A stretch of 64,000 nt of DNA from Terriglobia bacterium (GTDB lineage Bacteria; Acidobacteriota; Terriglobia; JAIQFV01), in the NCBI GenBank assembly GCA_020073085.1, contig JAIQFV010000007.1, positions 1 through 64,000 on the forward strand, read 5' to 3'. Shown in pieces: positions 25,161 to 38,181 of the stretch (positions are counted from its first letter, which is position 1; each line of letters begins with the position of its first letter). The translations under genes and the position numbers were made by a program. Below the pieces are notes generated by a model that saw only the letters and a list, made by a program, of their open reading frames with translations, did not search any database and was not told where the DNA came from.

Positions 25161-28100
25161 TTATCTCTTGCCGTCGAGACTGGCCCATTCGCCTGATTGG
25201 ATGAAGCTGGCCCAATAGAACGGATGCTGGTGACCTTTGCGCTTATGCATGGCCAATTGCGCCTGCCGCAGCGCCTCACCCCGCCCCAGGCCCTTTTTCA
25301 ATCCTCCATAATAATCACTCATCAATTCCCGCGTGACGTAGTCACTGACCGGCCACAGGCTCATGACCAGGGTTTCCGTGCCGGCCAAGAAAAACGCCCG
25401 CCGGAGTCCGTACACGCCTTCCCCGTTCTTCACCTCCCCCACTCCCGTATCGCAGGCGGAAAGCGTCACCAGCTTTGTCCCCCAAAGGTTGAGGTTCGCG
25501 GCCTCCAGGGCGGTGAGAATGCCGTCATCGCCACCGCCTTTGTTCAGATTCGCCCCCGCCAGAGCCAACCCCGAACGCAACAGCGAGTTCTCGATGTTGA
25601 CCCTCGCCTGAATGGCGCGGGTGCCGCCCTCTGCAGGGCCGGGCGTCGTCGGCCCGGTGTCACTCCCCTGGTCTTGCAGAAAGAATCCGTGCGTCGCGAT
25701 GTGCAGGATCCTGGGCGCATCAACCCCCTTGAGGGCAGCTTCGGTCGCTCGCTCTCCAGTGAGGACTCTGGCCTCGGGGAAGAGGGAGTGAATAGTGTGA
25801 GCTTCCTGGGCCGTGCCGATGAGCGGGGCAAAGTAGACGGTGGACAAATCCTGCCCGGTGGTGATGCTCCGGCGCGCTGAGGCGGTCTTAGTATGATTCA
25901 CCTTTAGCGAGCGCGCCTCTGCAATCTGCCTGCTCCCTGGCTCACCGAAGAACGGGTCAGCCACCACAATGGGTTTACTCCGACTTTCCCTGGGCACCTG
26001 CATTCGGAGCAAGTCGCGTCCGGCAGTCAGGTAGGTGATCGAGTAGCGCTCCAGCAAATAGCGGCCATTTTCGTCCACCAGGGCTTCAAAAGGGATGAGG
26101 TCGAGCTCCCCATCCGGTGAAACGAGCAGGTGGGTGGCATCCCCGATCAGGCTGCGCACGGGCCGCATGACCCTCTCGTCCACGGCACGTGCGAGTTGGG
26201 TGACATCATTTCTTTTGGAATCGCGCAGCGCCTGGCGGAAGGCATCGATCGCTCGGTCGAGAACCTTGCTCTCGCCCAGCTCTCTCCACTGCACGTCGCC
26301 GGTGGGGCGGATAACGTAGACGACATAGCGCGACTCGCCCACGCGATCCTGGTCCGTTACTCCTCCGGGAAGGTATCTCCTGTATGCCATGAATTCCAGC
26401 AAGGCGGTGTTCCCGGGCAACGCGCTGCGCACGGCTTCTAACGTGACCGGTTGTGACACGGCGAGGAACTCGGCGCTGCGCTTGCTGATCTCGGCCTCAA
26501 GATGTTCCCGCTCTTCCTTCAACGCATTGACGCGCTTCTGATGTTCCTCGCTAGTTGTGTTTGCGGGGCCGCCCAGAACCAGCCGGGCCAGCCGAGATGT
26601 GACGTCATCCACCGCATCGAGTAATTTTGCGTCCTCGTTATTCAGGTGCTGTCGCAGCACTTGAAGATTGTCGGAAAGGAGATCCTGTACGCGGCCTTTA
26701 CGTTGCAACACGGTCGTGGCCGCCAGGTCGCGGGCGGCGGCCTGTTCAGGCGCAAGACTCGCATTCAGCGTGATCGCTTGATTCAGCTGGGGTGACAACA
26801 GTTTCAGATAGGCCAGCTTCTGCCGTTCCGAGCCGGCAAGGAGATTCAGATCGGCGTTGTGCTCGCTGATAGCGATGGCCTGCGACAGGGACCCTTCCGC
26901 TTCCCCGAAGTTGCCCATCGCCATTTGAAGGGTAGATAAGTTGGTGAGAGTGTTGACCACATCGGGATGCTCAGGCCCGAGGGCCTTTTCGCGAATCGCC
27001 AGCGCCCTCCGGTAGAAATCTTCTGCGCGGCCGTAATCCCCTCGATCTCGGAAAAGCGTTCCGAGGTGCTCGAATGAAAGCGCCACGTCGGGATGGTCGG
27101 CCCCCAGCTTTTTTTCTCTGATAGCGAGTGCTCTCTGGTAAAGCGCCTCCGCGGTTGCGAAATCGCGGCGGTCGTGATCGATGTCGGCCAGATTCGTCAG
27201 AGTATCCGCGACGAGCGGATGCTCGGGTCCCTGCGTTTTCTCGAAAATCTTGAGCGCGCGCTTGTAGAGCGGTTCCGCTTTATCAATAGCCCCTTCCAAA
27301 CGGTACGCGTCGGCAAGATTCTCCAAGGGGACTCCAAGCCGGCGATCTTCGGGCCCGGAAGTCCTCTCCAGGATCGACACTGCACGCTGACCAAGACTCT
27401 CGGCCTTCAGATAGTCGCCTTTTTCAGAGTACACCCCGGCAAGGTTCGCGACTATAGTGGCGAGGCCGGGATAATCCGGACCAAACGTCTTTTCTGCGAT
27501 CGCCCTTGCCCGTTCATAATAGATGATCGCCTTGCTGTAGTCCGCTTTCATATCATACACATCCGCGAGATTTACAAGTGAGTTCGCGAGGGCTGGAGCT
27601 TCCACGCCGAACATCTTTTCTCCGACATCCAATGCGCGTTGCAAAGACAGCTCGGCTTTGTCAAATTCTTCCGTTTGTGCGTAGAGAACCCCCAGGTTGT
27701 TGAGGGTTTTGAAAATGCTGTCACTTGCCGGGCCGGTTGTTTTTTCCTGGATCTTCAGCGCACGCTGGTAGACCGCTTCGGCCTTTGGAAGCTCGGCCGT
27801 GGCTAGATAGATGTTTCCGAGTAAATAGAGCGGAAAGGCAACCGAAGCATCCTCCGGCCCCAGCTCCCTTTCCCGCAGCTCCAGAGCCTTCTGCGCGGAT
27901 TCCAGCCCTTCAGCGTACTTTCCGGCGTCACTAAGAACGCTGGCATTAAAGGCCAGGACCCGGGCCTGCTGGAGCTGATGCGACTTCTCGGAGGCGGGGC
28001 GCGGTTCTGAAAGTTGAGCTGTGCAGGCCTCTGTCGAAGGTGGCAGCGACTTATTCTCGACTTCCAGGCCGTAGCGACCTGGTGTTTCCGCCACGACCTC

Positions 28101-28484
28101 AACTGTCTCTTTGACGGATTGCGCATTCACAAAAGACCCGTCGATCGCAGTGCCTGCAGTGTCAAGGAGTCTGATCGTTGCAGACGCGCCTCGGCAATCA
28201 ATGGCAATGGTGGCGTACTGCCCTTGGCTCAGTTCGAACCTATAACTGTACTTCTGTCCACGAGCTATTTCGCGTTCCAGTGGCTTGCCGGGTTCGAGGA
28301 GCGTGATTTCCTGCTGATTTTGTGCAGGTGCGGCTTGTGTGACAGGCAAAGATCCGTTGGGAAGGGGAGGAGAGCTTACAGCCAGGGAAAGCGGCGATAG
28401 GGCGCACGTTGCGACAAACACAGCGCTCGCCCTCCGGGCGATAAGACCGATAACGAGGGAGTAAGAACGGATGCTTCGCGTCAT
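25161..28484 (-). CDS. TPR-CHAT protein (caspase-like peptidase)
   Basis: An 1107-residue protein. After a signal-like N-terminus (AVFVATCALSPLSLAVS) comes a small beta domain (about 55-150, ITLLEPGKPLEREIARGQKYSYRFELSQGQYATIAID), then about eleven TPR_10/12 repeats (180-560, 'A..l..RAL.I.Ek.lG.dHP.va..L.NLA'), a helical linker, and a CHAT domain (about 720-1100). The predicted caspase-type dyad is complete: His932 in IATHGFF and Cys1011 in LSACDTG, followed by EGVYGLRRAFFLAGTETLVMSLWPV. CHAT proteases are activated by partners bound to the TPRs. It lies downstream of a sigma factor and an anti-sigma-like gene on the same strand, which suggests stress- or envelope-linked control. If exported, it would act outside the cytoplasm. 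Confidence 0.93.
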   Translation of the reverse strand: MTRSIRSYSLVIGLIARRASAVFVATCALSPLSLAVSSPPLPNGSLPVTQAAPAQNQQEITLLEPGKPLEREIARGQKYSYRFELSQGQYATIAIDCRGASATIRLLDTAGTAIDGSFVNAQSVKETVEVVAETPGRYGLEVENKSLPPSTEACTAQLSEPRPASEKSHQLQQARVLAFNASVLSDAGKYAEGLESAQKALELRERELGPEDASVAFPLYLLGNIYLATAELPKAEAVYQRALKIQEKTTGPASDSIFKTLNNLGVLYAQTEEFDKAELSLQRALDVGEKMFGVEAPALANSLVNLADVYDMKADYSKAIIYYERARAIAEKTFGPDYPGLATIVANLAGVYSEKGDYLKAESLGQRAVSILERTSGPEDRRLGVPLENLADAYRLEGAIDKAEPLYKRALKIFEKTQGPEHPLVADTLTNLADIDHDRRDFATAEALYQRALAIREKKLGADHPDVALSFEHLGTLFRDRGDYGRAEDFYRRALAIREKALGPEHPDVVNTLTNLSTLQMAMGNFGEAEGSLSQAIAISEHNADLNLLAGSERQKLAYLKLLSPQLNQAITLNASLAPEQAAARDLAATTVLQRKGRVQDLLSDNLQVLRQHLNNEDAKLLDAVDDVTSRLARLVLGGPANTTSEEHQKRVNALKEEREHLEAEISKRSAEFLAVSQPVTLEAVRSALPGNTALLEFMAYRRYLPGGVTDQDRVGESRYVVYVIRPTGDVQWRELGESKVLDRAIDAFRQALRDSKRNDVTQLARAVDERVMRPVRSLIGDATHLLVSPDGELDLIPFEALVDENGRYLLERYSITYLTAGRDLLRMQVPRESRSKPIVVADPFFGEPGSRQIAEARSLKVNHTKTASARRSITTGQDLSTVYFAPLIGTAQEAHTIHSLFPEARVLTGERATEAALKGVDAPRILHIATHGFFLQDQGSDTGPTTPGPAEGGTRAIQARVNIENSLLRSGLALAGANLNKGGGDDGILTALEAANLNLWGTKLVTLSACDTGVGEVKNGEGVYGLRRAFFLAGTETLVMSLWPVSDYVTRELMSDYYGGLKKGLGRGEALRQAQLAMHKRKGHQHPFYWASFIQSGEWASLDGKR

Positions 28485-28529
28485 AGTGAATACACCTGCG
28501 TGAATGATTTGGAATTCGTTCGGGTGACG

Positions 28530-29501
28530 CTATTTTAGCATAGCGCGGAAGGGATAAGTGCTGATGAATTCCGGGGCGCCTCGAGAGGGTACTCCCGTGA
28601 GCTCCACGAGGTAATTCTGGGGCTTCAACACGTCGGCGCGGAAGCTGATTGAAACAGCTTTGTATTCGCCACCGGACGTGCTCTTCAGGTTTCCGCTACG
28701 CCATATCAGGTGATGGTTTGCAGGGTCCTTTAACTCAGCCCGATAGGCCGGGAAGTCGTCCGACTCGAGCGCCAACAGCAATACCGCCAGGTCCGTTCCC
28801 GTGGGCACGGAAATCGTCGGAATCTGGCCTGCGCCTCGGGTCGCCGGCAGCAGGAAAAGAGAAATGGTCCTGAGCTGGTCAAGGTTCACCTGAGGTTCAC
28901 GGGCCTGTTCTAGCTCTTTTAGAGTTCTGGCGCTGGCTGAGCGTTGTTCGGTGAGCTGCGTCTTCATCTGCTGCTCTCGTTCGCCAAGCGCGGCACGACC
29001 TGCCTCTGCCTCGGTCACCTGCTTACGCAGTCGCAGGTTATCCATGAGTAGAAGCCCGCCAGCAAGAAGCATCACCAGCGCCAGGCCTGCAAGTGTCCAC
29101 TGGGGAACTAAGGGCGGGAGGGGGAAGAACCTCCGCCGGGATGACTGTTGTGAAGGGCCTTCCGACGGCGCGGACCTGAAAGGGCTCAATGCTGGGGCGA
29201 TTTGAGCGTCCGCTGTTCTGTTTTCATACCCGAGAAGGGTCTCGGCGAAACGCACCTTCTCGCGTCGATTCATCGAGGATAGATAGAATGACTTAAACCG
29301 ATCCTGCGTCTCCCCGGAAAGATCGCCTCTCGCGTAAGCGTCCACGAGGTCGTTTTCGACCGCATTCAACCGCAACGCGAACTCGTCATCCGCGATGCTC
29401 AACTCATCCAGGTGCTCGGCCTCTTCATTGGGCAGAGAACCAAGAAGATACCGTACCAGGAGCTGATCATCATATCCTTGCTTGTCTGATAGAGACATCA
29501 T
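28530..29501 (-). CDS. membrane anti-sigma-factor-like protein
   Basis: From ATGATG at 29501 the protein has about 323 residues. The N-terminal part (YDDQLLVRYLLGSLPNEEAEHLDELSIADDEFALRLNAVENDLVDAYARGDLSGE) resembles the zinc-finger-like anti-sigma region of acidobacterial sigma/anti-sigma pairs but lacks the His/Cys metal ligands. A membrane helix (TLAGLALVMLLAGGLLL, near 145-165) is followed by a coiled coil (RLRKQVTEAEAGRAALGEREQQMKTQLTEQRSASARTLKEL) and a beta domain outside. An upstream GTG (29564) inside the sigma gene, with GGAAG before it, is an alternative start that would give overlap and translational coupling. It should sequester or tune the sigma factor encoded upstream. Confidence 0.75.
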   Translation of the reverse strand: MMSLSDKQGYDDQLLVRYLLGSLPNEEAEHLDELSIADDEFALRLNAVENDLVDAYARGDLSGETQDRFKSFYLSSMNRREKVRFAETLLGYENRTADAQIAPALSPFRSAPSEGPSQQSSRRRFFPLPPLVPQWTLAGLALVMLLAGGLLLMDNLRLRKQVTEAEAGRAALGEREQQMKTQLTEQRSASARTLKELEQAREPQVNLDQLRTISLFLLPATRGAGQIPTISVPTGTDLAVLLLALESDDFPAYRAELKDPANHHLIWRSGNLKSTSGGEYKAVSISFRADVLKPQNYLVELTGVPSRGAPEFISTYPFRAMLK

Positions 29502-29535
29502 CCCACTTATATAAGACAGAATCCGGTAAAATCCT

Positions 29536-30147
29536 TCATTTTCGCCTGGCACACGTACTAACACAAACTTCCAGCTTGTTGCGGATCCGGCAGGCCCGGA
29601 TGCTCAGGGCATTCATCGAAAGGCCGAAGCGGGCAGCCAGTTGGGCGCGGCGCTCGATCTTTACCCGCTGTTCACCCTGATAATACTCCAGGATGAGCTC
29701 TTGCTCGCTCGAGGGCAACTTCCGCAGGCATTTTTCCAGGCAGTCGAGCAGCTTCTCCCGGGTCTCAATCACCATCTCTGGCCCCGACGTCACCGTCAGG
29801 TCCGAGACTGCATGACGAGGTTCTGATAATTCGTCGAAGGTTGTCGGGCCTTGTTTGGCCGCGCGCACGTATTCCAGGAAAACGAACTTGGCGACGATGT
29901 AGCAATAGTGGGCGGGCGAGACGTCGGTAATCGCGCCCTTTTCCCCGAGCTTGCGTGCCACCCGGTTCAGTGTTTCATCCGCCAATTCATCCGGGGAGAG
30001 GCAGTTCCTCCGGTCGAAGTAAAGCAGCAGCCGGTGGCGCATTTCGAGATACCTCTCACCGCTGGTATCGACCCCCTCGTCCAGCCAATTGAGAAACTGG
30101 TGGAAGGCTTCAGCGTTCAGTGTCCAGTCCTTCTTCAGGTCTGTCAT
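29536..30147 (-). CDS. ECF-like RNA polymerase sigma factor
   Basis: About 203 residues from the ATG at 30147 (MTDLKKDWTLNAEAFHQFLNWLD); an ATG at 30204 is also open. Region 2 includes LLLYFDRRNCLSPDELADETLNRVARKL and AHYCYIVAKFVFLEYVRA; region 4 includes CLRKLPSSEQELILEYYQGEQRVKIERRAQLAARFGLSMNALSIRACRIRNKLE with a helix-turn-helix. This is an acidobacterial sigma-70 subgroup often next to membrane proteins of the type encoded downstream. It probably drives its own operon (anti-sigma-like protein, TPR-CHAT protein). Confidence 0.85.
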   Translation of the reverse strand: MTDLKKDWTLNAEAFHQFLNWLDEGVDTSGERYLEMRHRLLLYFDRRNCLSPDELADETLNRVARKLGEKGAITDVSPAHYCYIVAKFVFLEYVRAAKQGPTTFDELSEPRHAVSDLTVTSGPEMVIETREKLLDCLEKCLRKLPSSEQELILEYYQGEQRVKIERRAQLAARFGLSMNALSIRACRIRNKLEVCVSTCARRK

Positions 30148-30283
30148 GGCCGCGGGCCCTTCTACGCTTTCGTCAACCGCGATTCTACTCCCGCACCCAG
30201 ACATACCTCAAGGACACAACCAAGACCATGGCGTAACCCGCGGATGGCGCCAGATCACAAATCTACATGTCGACAACGAGTTC

Positions 30284-35853: not shown

Positions 35854-35884
35854 CCGGGATGAATCAAAGAGCGATTCATCCCGG
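35854..35884. repeat. perfect 12-bp hairpin related to the REP-like palindromes
   Basis: CCGGGATGAATC (35854-35865) and GATTCATCCCGG (35873-35884) pair perfectly round a seven-base loop. The core GATTCATC is shared with the CACCCCGATTCATCGGGGTG family. It lies between the toroid gene and the sigma-LRR gene and may also end transcription. Confidence 0.7.
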
Positions 35885-36057
35885 CTACCAGGCCAATTTG
35901 ACGCACTCCTCTTGTCCTTTCCATGTCTTTGAGCTCTCCGACCCGCCGAGGGCCAAGCAAATATCCCTGGTTATTCACAGGAATGAAAACTGGTATATTT
36001 CCCTCCGAGCCATCACACCCTGGTCACACAATTCGGGTCTTTATACATGGAGGGAAT

Positions 36058-38181
36058 TTGCCGGACAAGGAACGGATAACGTCGTTAGTGATCGCGGCGC
36101 AAGCGGGGGACGACCTCGCTTTTGCAGAGTTGGTCCGTTCGTATCAGGACATGGCGGTGGCTTATGCTGCTTCTATTCTGGGGGATTATCAGCTTGCGGA
36201 AGATGCGGCGCAGGAAGCTTTTGTCGAGGCATATCGAGAATTGCGTTCACTGCGCGAACCGGGCGCTTTCGCGGGGTGGTTTCGCACCCTCCTCTTCAAA
36301 CACTGCGACCGTTTGACGCGCCGGAAGCGGTACCCCATCACTGGCTTAAGTGCGGCGATGGAAGTGGCCTCCCCGCAGCCCTCCCCGCACGAGACCCTCG
36401 AGGCGAAGAATGCGCAAACCGCTATCCGGAACGCCATCGCGACCCTTTCCGATGCCGAGCGCGCCGCCGTAATGCTGTACTACCTGGGTGAACACTCGCA
36501 TGCGACGATCGCCGAATTCCTGGGAGTGACTGCTAATGCCGTCAAGACCCGGTTGTACTCGGCCCGCCAACGATTAAAGAAACACATGAGACACCTTGAG
36601 GAAGGGTTACGGGCCGCCCGGCCGTCGAGCGGCCCACACTTTGCCGGGCGGGTCATGAGCGCCTCCTTGACCTTGCAACTCTACTTCGTCGACGTTGACG
36701 GCAGCAAACTAGCAGCCGGCAGCACTGTCGCATCCCGGACCGCGGAAGTGCCCCCTGCGCAAACCTGGTTGATCGAGCCACGCCAGACCCTGACAGAAAA
36801 AGACTGGGACACGGTCGTTGGCCTGGTGAGGGAACTGCAAATTCCGGGTCTGGGCGCCTCTGGGCAGATGACCGACGCCTTGCTTGAACGGATCTGCCAG
36901 CTCGATCACCTGACCTATCTCGACCTGCATGATTCGCCGGAAGTGACCGATGACGGCCTCCGCCACCTGGCGCACCTCCCGCGGTTACAGCATCTTAATT
37001 TGAGTTGTCACCGGATCACCGATCAAGGGCTTGAGGTCTTACGCCAACTTCCGCAGCTCAAGACATTTGAGCTTCATCACCAGGGACAAGTGTCAGACGC
37101 AGGCTTGGCCCATCTGGCGCAATGCGATCGTCTGGAGCGGGTAAATCTGATGGGGACGCGGACCGGGGACGGCGTCATTAAGGCCCTGACGGGCAAGGCG
37201 AGACTCCGGCAATTTTTTGCCGGTACCAATGTCACCGATGCCGGCCTCGAACTGCTCCACCAGTTTCCGGTGTTCAAGACATGGAGGGGCGGCCGGGCAC
37301 AGATGTCACTTCTGTCCTTCATCGCCCATCCGAACTATCTCTGGCTGAATCTCAAAGCGCCGCTGACGAACAGGGGACTTCGAAACCTGGCGGGCCTCGA
37401 CGGGCTTTACGCAGTGAACCTTTTCGGAACGATGGGACATGCGCCCTTCGACCCCATCAACTCCGCGATCACACCGGAGGGTTTGAGTCATTTGGCGAGT
37501 CTTCCCCATTTGGGCTGGCTGGGTTGTTGCGCCCAGCTTTGCACCGATGAAGCGATGCATCACATCAGCAGTATCCCTCGTCTCCGTTTCCTGATGTGCC
37601 AGGATGCGGTCGCGGGCGACAAGGGTTTTATGGAGTTGGGCCGTTCGCCTTCTATTGAATACATTTGGGGACGGCGCTGCTACAACCTCACCGGGCACGG
37701 GTTTGCCGCCCTCCAGGCGATGCCGGCGTTGCGCGGACTTTCGGTGAGCTGCAGAAACGTCGATGACGAGGGCTTATCGACGTTGCCTCGCTTCCCCGCG
37801 CTTCGGGAATTCATGCCGATGGACGTCCCCGACGACGGATTTCGTCATGTGGGCCGCTGTGGACAGCTTGAAGCCCTGCACTGCATGTATTGTCCGGAAA
37901 TGACCGACGCTGCAACCGCGCATATCGCCGGCTTGTCCAAGCTGAAATCCTATCAAGCTTGGAGCACCCGGATGACGGATCGCAGCCTGGAGATTCTGGG
38001 AAGGATGTCGTCTCTCGAACATCTGCGCTTCTATAAGTGCGATGGCATCACCCAGGCAGGCCTGGCCTCCCTGGCTGGCCTTCCCCGGCTACTTGAGGTC
38101 GATCTCGAGAGCTTGCGACATACTACGCCCGAAGACGCGGCTGTTTTCCCCGCCCATGTCCGTGTGAACTATTCGGCGTAG
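36058..38181 (+). CDS. ECF sigma factor fused to leucine-rich repeats
   Basis: From a TTG at 36058 with GGAGG four bases upstream (an ATG at 35923 is open but has no ribosome site), the protein has about 707 residues. The first 170 are an ECF sigma factor: region 2 DDLAFAELVRSYQDMAVAYAASILGDYQLAEDAAQEAFVEAYREL, and region 4 AIATLSDAERAAVMLYYLGEHSHATIAEFLGVTANAVKTRLYSARQRLKKHM with a complete helix-turn-helix. From about 260 the chain is a leucine-rich-repeat solenoid of the 'L..LdL..sp.vTD.GL..La.LprLq.L.L' (AMN1/RI-like) type to the end, with some 15 repeats. Both parts are in one unbroken frame. The LRR may sense a partner and control the sigma part; no anti-sigma gene is adjacent. Confidence 0.88.
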   Translation: MPDKERITSLVIAAQAGDDLAFAELVRSYQDMAVAYAASILGDYQLAEDAAQEAFVEAYRELRSLREPGAFAGWFRTLLFKHCDRLTRRKRYPITGLSAAMEVASPQPSPHETLEAKNAQTAIRNAIATLSDAERAAVMLYYLGEHSHATIAEFLGVTANAVKTRLYSARQRLKKHMRHLEEGLRAARPSSGPHFAGRVMSASLTLQLYFVDVDGSKLAAGSTVASRTAEVPPAQTWLIEPRQTLTEKDWDTVVGLVRELQIPGLGASGQMTDALLERICQLDHLTYLDLHDSPEVTDDGLRHLAHLPRLQHLNLSCHRITDQGLEVLRQLPQLKTFELHHQGQVSDAGLAHLAQCDRLERVNLMGTRTGDGVIKALTGKARLRQFFAGTNVTDAGLELLHQFPVFKTWRGGRAQMSLLSFIAHPNYLWLNLKAPLTNRGLRNLAGLDGLYAVNLFGTMGHAPFDPINSAITPEGLSHLASLPHLGWLGCCAQLCTDEAMHHISSIPRLRFLMCQDAVAGDKGFMELGRSPSIEYIWGRRCYNLTGHGFAALQAMPALRGLSVSCRNVDDEGLSTLPRFPALREFMPMDVPDDGFRHVGRCGQLEALHCMYCPEMTDAATAHIAGLSKLKSYQAWSTRMTDRSLEILGRMSSLEHLRFYKCDGITQAGLASLAGLPRLLEVDLESLRHTTPEDAAVFPAHVRVNYSA

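Follow-up and report, generated by a model that had tools for sequence, protein, structure and literature searches.

Can a single bacterial polypeptide join a sigma factor to a leucine-rich-repeat (LRR) receptor, and what would the receptor do there? The question is raised by a contig of a Terriglobia bacterium (JAIQFV010000007.1, assembly GCA_020073085.1), of which the first 64,000 nucleotides, the window, were analysed here. On its plus strand, one open reading frame without stops (36058-38181; 759 codons from stop to stop) spans a sigma part and an LRR part and encodes 707 residues from a TTG codon. ECF sigma factors are one of the main routes of bacterial signal transduction, and the members that carry a C-terminal extension do without a membrane anti-sigma factor; LRR receptors are most familiar from F-box and innate-immunity proteins of eukaryotes. 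The features of the locus are collected in Table 1.

Table 1. Features of the sigma-LRR locus (window coordinates)
Feature	Position	Strand	Basis
Extended -10-like element TGGTATATT, putative housekeeping promoter	35991..35999	+	consensus match only; identical in both species
Shine-Dalgarno GGAGG before TTG	36049..36053	+	sequence; kept in ortholog
ECF sigma-LRR fusion gene, 707 aa, TTG start	36058..38181	+	open frame, Pfam/NCBIfam matches, 81% ortholog, dN/dS about 0.17
Sigma region 2, residues 25-91	36130..36330	+	PF04542 above cut-off
Sigma region 4, residues 122-173, HTH intact	36421..36576	+	PF08281, PF04545 above cut-off
Sigma-LRR tether, residues 187-236, predicted flexible	36616..36765	+	pLDDT under 50; dN/dS 0.17
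LRR solenoid, about 17 cysteine-containing/FBXL-type repeats, residues 241-707	36778..38178	+	model, fold matches, family identity

In the front part, the Pfam models Sigma70_r2 (1.7e-10, 41 bits against a cut-off of 24) and Sigma70_r4_2 (3.8e-13, 49.3 bits against 25.7) matched with a gap of about 30 residues between them and without regions 1 and 3, and the NCBIfam sigma70-ECF model (TIGR02937, 1.6e-24) also scored above its own cut-off. The solved relatives of this part by sequence were SigW/SigE-type ECFs, and its domain content, i.e. regions 2 and 4, would class the protein as an ECF (group IV) sigma-70 factor. The sigma helices were modelled by AlphaFold2 at a pLDDT of about 60, a moderate confidence attributable to the shallow sigma alignment.

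Behind region 4 a folded, ortholog-conserved domain was predicted, in which residues 241-707 form 17-18 strand-helix units mostly at pLDDT over 90 (AlphaFold2, 32-row alignment). Within Pfam, the C-terminal part was matched by LRR models only (LRR_14, 3.1e-11; LRR_6, 1.5e-8; both over cut-off), with no TPR or WD40 match, and its repeats of ~24-26 residues follow the consensus ..L..L.L.....itD.gL..L of the cysteine-containing/FBXL type. Its solved relatives by sequence were the LRRs of FBXL2, FBXL17, SKP2 and GALA, and the closest folds (Foldseek, VIA-align) were FBXL2 (Z 28.1), RipG4 (Z 27.6) and FBXL17 (Z 26.0), with ribonuclease inhibitor and TIR1/COI1 also among the best matches; these bind protein or a small ligand, and the predicted LRR fold would by itself indicate no function. 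Nor did conservation pick out a binding face, the polar residues of the concave (strand) face having a mean entropy of 1.49 versus 1.54 for the rest. The preliminary description had read a complete ECF sigma (regions 2 and 4) followed by a large AMN1-type LRR array; both assignments are upheld by these matches, while its count of about 15 repeats gives way to about 17 in the AlphaFold2 model.

One alternative is an artefact, with a sequencing or assembly error having fused two separate genes, and the window does come from a draft assembly of 68 contigs. A same-genus ortholog (locus L037 of genome G001, a Terriglobia metagenome-assembled genome, Acidobacteriota) carries the identical joint, full length, without stops and at 81% identity, in the assembly of another species. 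Its downstream genes are syntenic with those of the window (38.8-45.5 kb, 80-91% identity), and the upstream genes are not. Between the two species the substitutions were mostly synonymous in each part (NG86 dN/dS: sigma 0.14, tether 0.17, LRR 0.18), pointing to purifying selection of similar strength that has kept all three; even the ~50-residue tether, modelled with low confidence by AlphaFold2, is 78% identical in the ortholog over residues 186-240. The frameshift or assembly error at about 36.6 kb, which the preliminary description had named as what would overturn a true one-frame fusion, is thereby ruled out, and the probability left to an artefact is negligible.

The start proposed earlier, a TTG preceded by GGAGG, has likewise held up, both elements being kept in the ortholog, and TTG 36058 is the best-supported start on sequence grounds. 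The ORF finder had listed a longer frame from ATG 35923, and a further ATG lies at 35983. Both are disfavoured because the DNA farther upstream has frame-breaking indels relative to the ortholog and because substitutions in the 75 bp directly 5′ of the TTG are spread evenly across codon positions (6/4/6), with the Shine-Dalgarno and TTG conserved. The extended -10-like element lies within a stretch conserved between both species. Farther upstream, a perfect inverted repeat with 12-bp arms (35854-35884; CCGGGATGAATC-AAAGAGC-GATTCATCCCGG), extended by CTACCA to 35890, is identical upstream of the ortholog. As a sigma-specific operator it was rejected, a few near copies lying beside unrelated genes in both genomes; it had no Rfam match and is a sparse dispersed palindromic element.

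The nearest downstream genes code for a zinc ribbon of the FmdB type and for a protein of 154 aa that has no Pfam match. Elsewhere in the window, a minus-strand gene row (25161-30204) reads as a divergent sigma-like gene without Pfam match (29536-30204), a gene with a weak zf-HC2 match (28530-29564) and a gene for a large TPR protein, by eye resembling a CHAT protease (25161-28484).

Where the LRR part occurs elsewhere was addressed by scanning 84,980 species genomes, with the LRR-family alignment as query and two peptide patterns of this family. The scan returned 45 loci, nearly all in Acidobacteriota with a few in Gemmatimonadota and others, and only at the same-genus locus L037 did a sigma part stand in front. 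In the class sample, LRR proteins of 13 other genomes matched, and identities between the window LRR and 29 LRR proteins of other genomes ranged from 43 to 63%. At most of the 44 other loci the LRR lies behind other N-terminal modules, and at some there is little in front. One such module, LRREAKRWLKALR...RDVQHALAREYGFxxWxxLK, occurs in one or two copies per protein and has no Pfam match; at four loci (L040, L042, L055 and L064; Pfam-confirmed for L040 and L064) ankyrin-type stretches lie between such modules. The N-termini of the acidobacterial proteins L013-L078 represent an orphan domain family (RREAKRWLKALR...AREYGF..W..LK), likewise without Pfam match, which precedes LRR or ankyrin repeats.

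A tree built from 31 LRR domains groups the two fusion proteins as one clade within an otherwise sigma-less family, fitting a single fusion event. The sigma-less relatives have 95 near-invariant columns, and the window protein matches 89 of these, including W537, R539, Y611 and C612, suggesting that the ancestral LRR fold has been retained and probably its recognition too; among the near-invariant positions of the family, R613 is replaced by P and T615 by M in both fusion proteins. At two loci a sigma gene follows the LRR-family gene at a distance of ~100 bp and on the same strand (L038, 5522-6412; L052, 3873-4424), that of L052 being followed in turn by an anti-sigma-like zinc-binding motif; being 2 of the 45 loci, they are suggestive and too few for a claim of general linkage.

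As for the sigma part, its closest relatives found were ECFs fused to ankyrin repeats rather than free ECFs, namely L011 (49% identity), in the same genome as the ortholog, and L029 (44%; genome G599), in another family of the phylum. The three share a junction motif, RPS...FA.R, behind region 4. The ankyrin repeats of L029 are Pfam-supported, and its ankyrin part weakly matches MzaA models. Because the LRR stands behind other N-terminal modules elsewhere and the sigma relatives carry ankyrin repeats, both modules appear portable, and they seem to have been joined by one fusion event within a single genus of Acidobacteriota.

The survey for further fusions covered this LRR family and, for unrelated LRR families, the Acidobacteriota. 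Region 2 matched 39 times in the genome of the window, and the other long matches fetched there carried no LRRs; neither the order (3 genomes) nor 299 genomes of the class nor plasmids yielded a further sigma-LRR fusion, and no LRR extension was found among the long-frame ECFs fetched from 396 genomes of the phylum, which were extended by membrane-like segments or by DUF1835-like or PheS-like parts. Viral contigs yielded no relative of the sigma part, and PADLOC (anti-phage defence) no match for the window protein. The fusion, which the preliminary description had called unusual, is indeed rare, with two species found in one genus, and a literature keyword search of partial coverage found no described ECF-LRR fusion. 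Among the extensions just listed, an ECF sigma and a PheS-like class II tRNA synthetase core share one frame in two acidobacterial genomes of different families (L148:1336-2661 and L157:1056-2333, both minus strand; tRNA-synt_2d 1.4e-24 and 2.6e-16, respectively); this fusion looks unusual and is possibly a candidate amino-acid-sensing sigma factor.

What, then, might the LRR do for the sigma factor? With slightly better than even confidence, we favour a one-protein transcriptional switch, born of one gene fusion, in which the tethered LRR binds a partner and gates the sigma. As judged from the families, the N-terminal ECF part would bind the RNA polymerase core and recognise its own promoters; the C-terminal LRR, on its flexible tether, would bind the partner, for which a protein or peptide is the likeliest candidate, and this binding would alter how the sigma engages polymerase or promoter. 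A separate anti-sigma factor would not be needed. By origin, a sigma module with ankyrin-bearing relatives would have received an LRR module of the acidobacterial family. One protein thus probably both senses a partner and turns genes on in two related soil Acidobacteria.

Three other roles were weighed against this switch. The sigma part may no longer initiate transcription and instead act as a decoy or adaptor, as does the sigma-like domain of PhyR, which captures an anti-sigma factor in the general stress response. Beyond that precedent, the sigma scores here are modest; however, regions 2 and 4 exceed their Pfam cut-offs, the region 2 and HTH residues are common to the window protein and its sigma-ankyrin relatives, and the receiver domain of PhyR is missing from the fusion, leaving this role very improbable. 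LRRs also act as scaffolds, and the same LRR is joined elsewhere to other N-terminal modules and ankyrin repeats, so the LRR might anchor rather than gate, docking the sigma to another complex, a place in the cell or an activator, with transcription aimed instead of switched. No transmembrane or targeting element was noticed in the sequence, though, and the ECF extensions studied are regulatory (PMC8999054), so that an anchor is improbable.

An LRR that works as an anti-sigma in cis, a role the preliminary description had suggested, would fold back on regions 2 and 4 and prevent core binding until drawn off by a partner. It would find a tether long enough, and among the adjacent genes examined Pfam recognised no anti-sigma domain (several neighbours have no Pfam match at all), which agrees with control in cis of either sign. 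Extensions of ECF41 do inhibit, but the TPR extension of ECF42 is essential for activity (PMC8999054), the opposite sign, and since both occur, inhibition versus activation is not readable from sequence. Moreover, the LRR family is mostly without sigma and so evolved in some role other than inhibiting one, and no sigma-LRR contact is defined in the AlphaFold2 model, whose output carries no contact measure. We consider such an inhibitor unlikely, and keep to a partner-gated switch of either sign.

The LRR extension would add a receptor class to ECF sigma factors; we know of no direct LRR-receptor-to-promoter switch described before. More tentatively, and with an expectation well below even, the acidobacterial LRR family as a whole might be a cytoplasmic ligand-sensing module with a swapped output, here an ECF sigma making a direct receptor-to-promoter switch; if so, the fusion's regulon would show what the whole orphan family senses. 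Since the same LRR family sits on non-sigma proteins throughout the Acidobacteriota, the fusion gives a way in: the genes it controls and the partner it binds could reveal what the family recognises.

Compared with known systems, an ECF with a C-terminal repeat extension is an established design, and the LRR as that extension appears new. ECF42 likewise has a solenoid of protein-binding repeats at the C-terminus of its sigma, presumably gated by a partner protein (PMC8999054), but of TPRs and about 200 aa, whereas the extension here is of LRRs and about 470 aa plus tether, on a sigma not assigned to ECF42. The long C-terminal repeats of ECF57, for which partner binding has been proposed, are WD40-like (PMC8999054), a beta-propeller in place of the LRR solenoid. 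The ECF-ankyrin fusions L011 and L029 share the closest sigmas, the junction motif and C-terminal repeats, but they are shorter and have ankyrin repeats without LRR. Conversely, the acidobacterial LRR proteins L013-L078 share a homologous LRR of about equal length but lack the sigma, having the Pfam-less N-terminal module or ankyrin in its place. FBXL, GALA (RipG) and AMN1-type proteins agree in LRR type and fold, whereas the fusion, at 17-20% identity to them, has neither F-box nor ubiquitin ligase context and carries its LRR on an ECF sigma factor.
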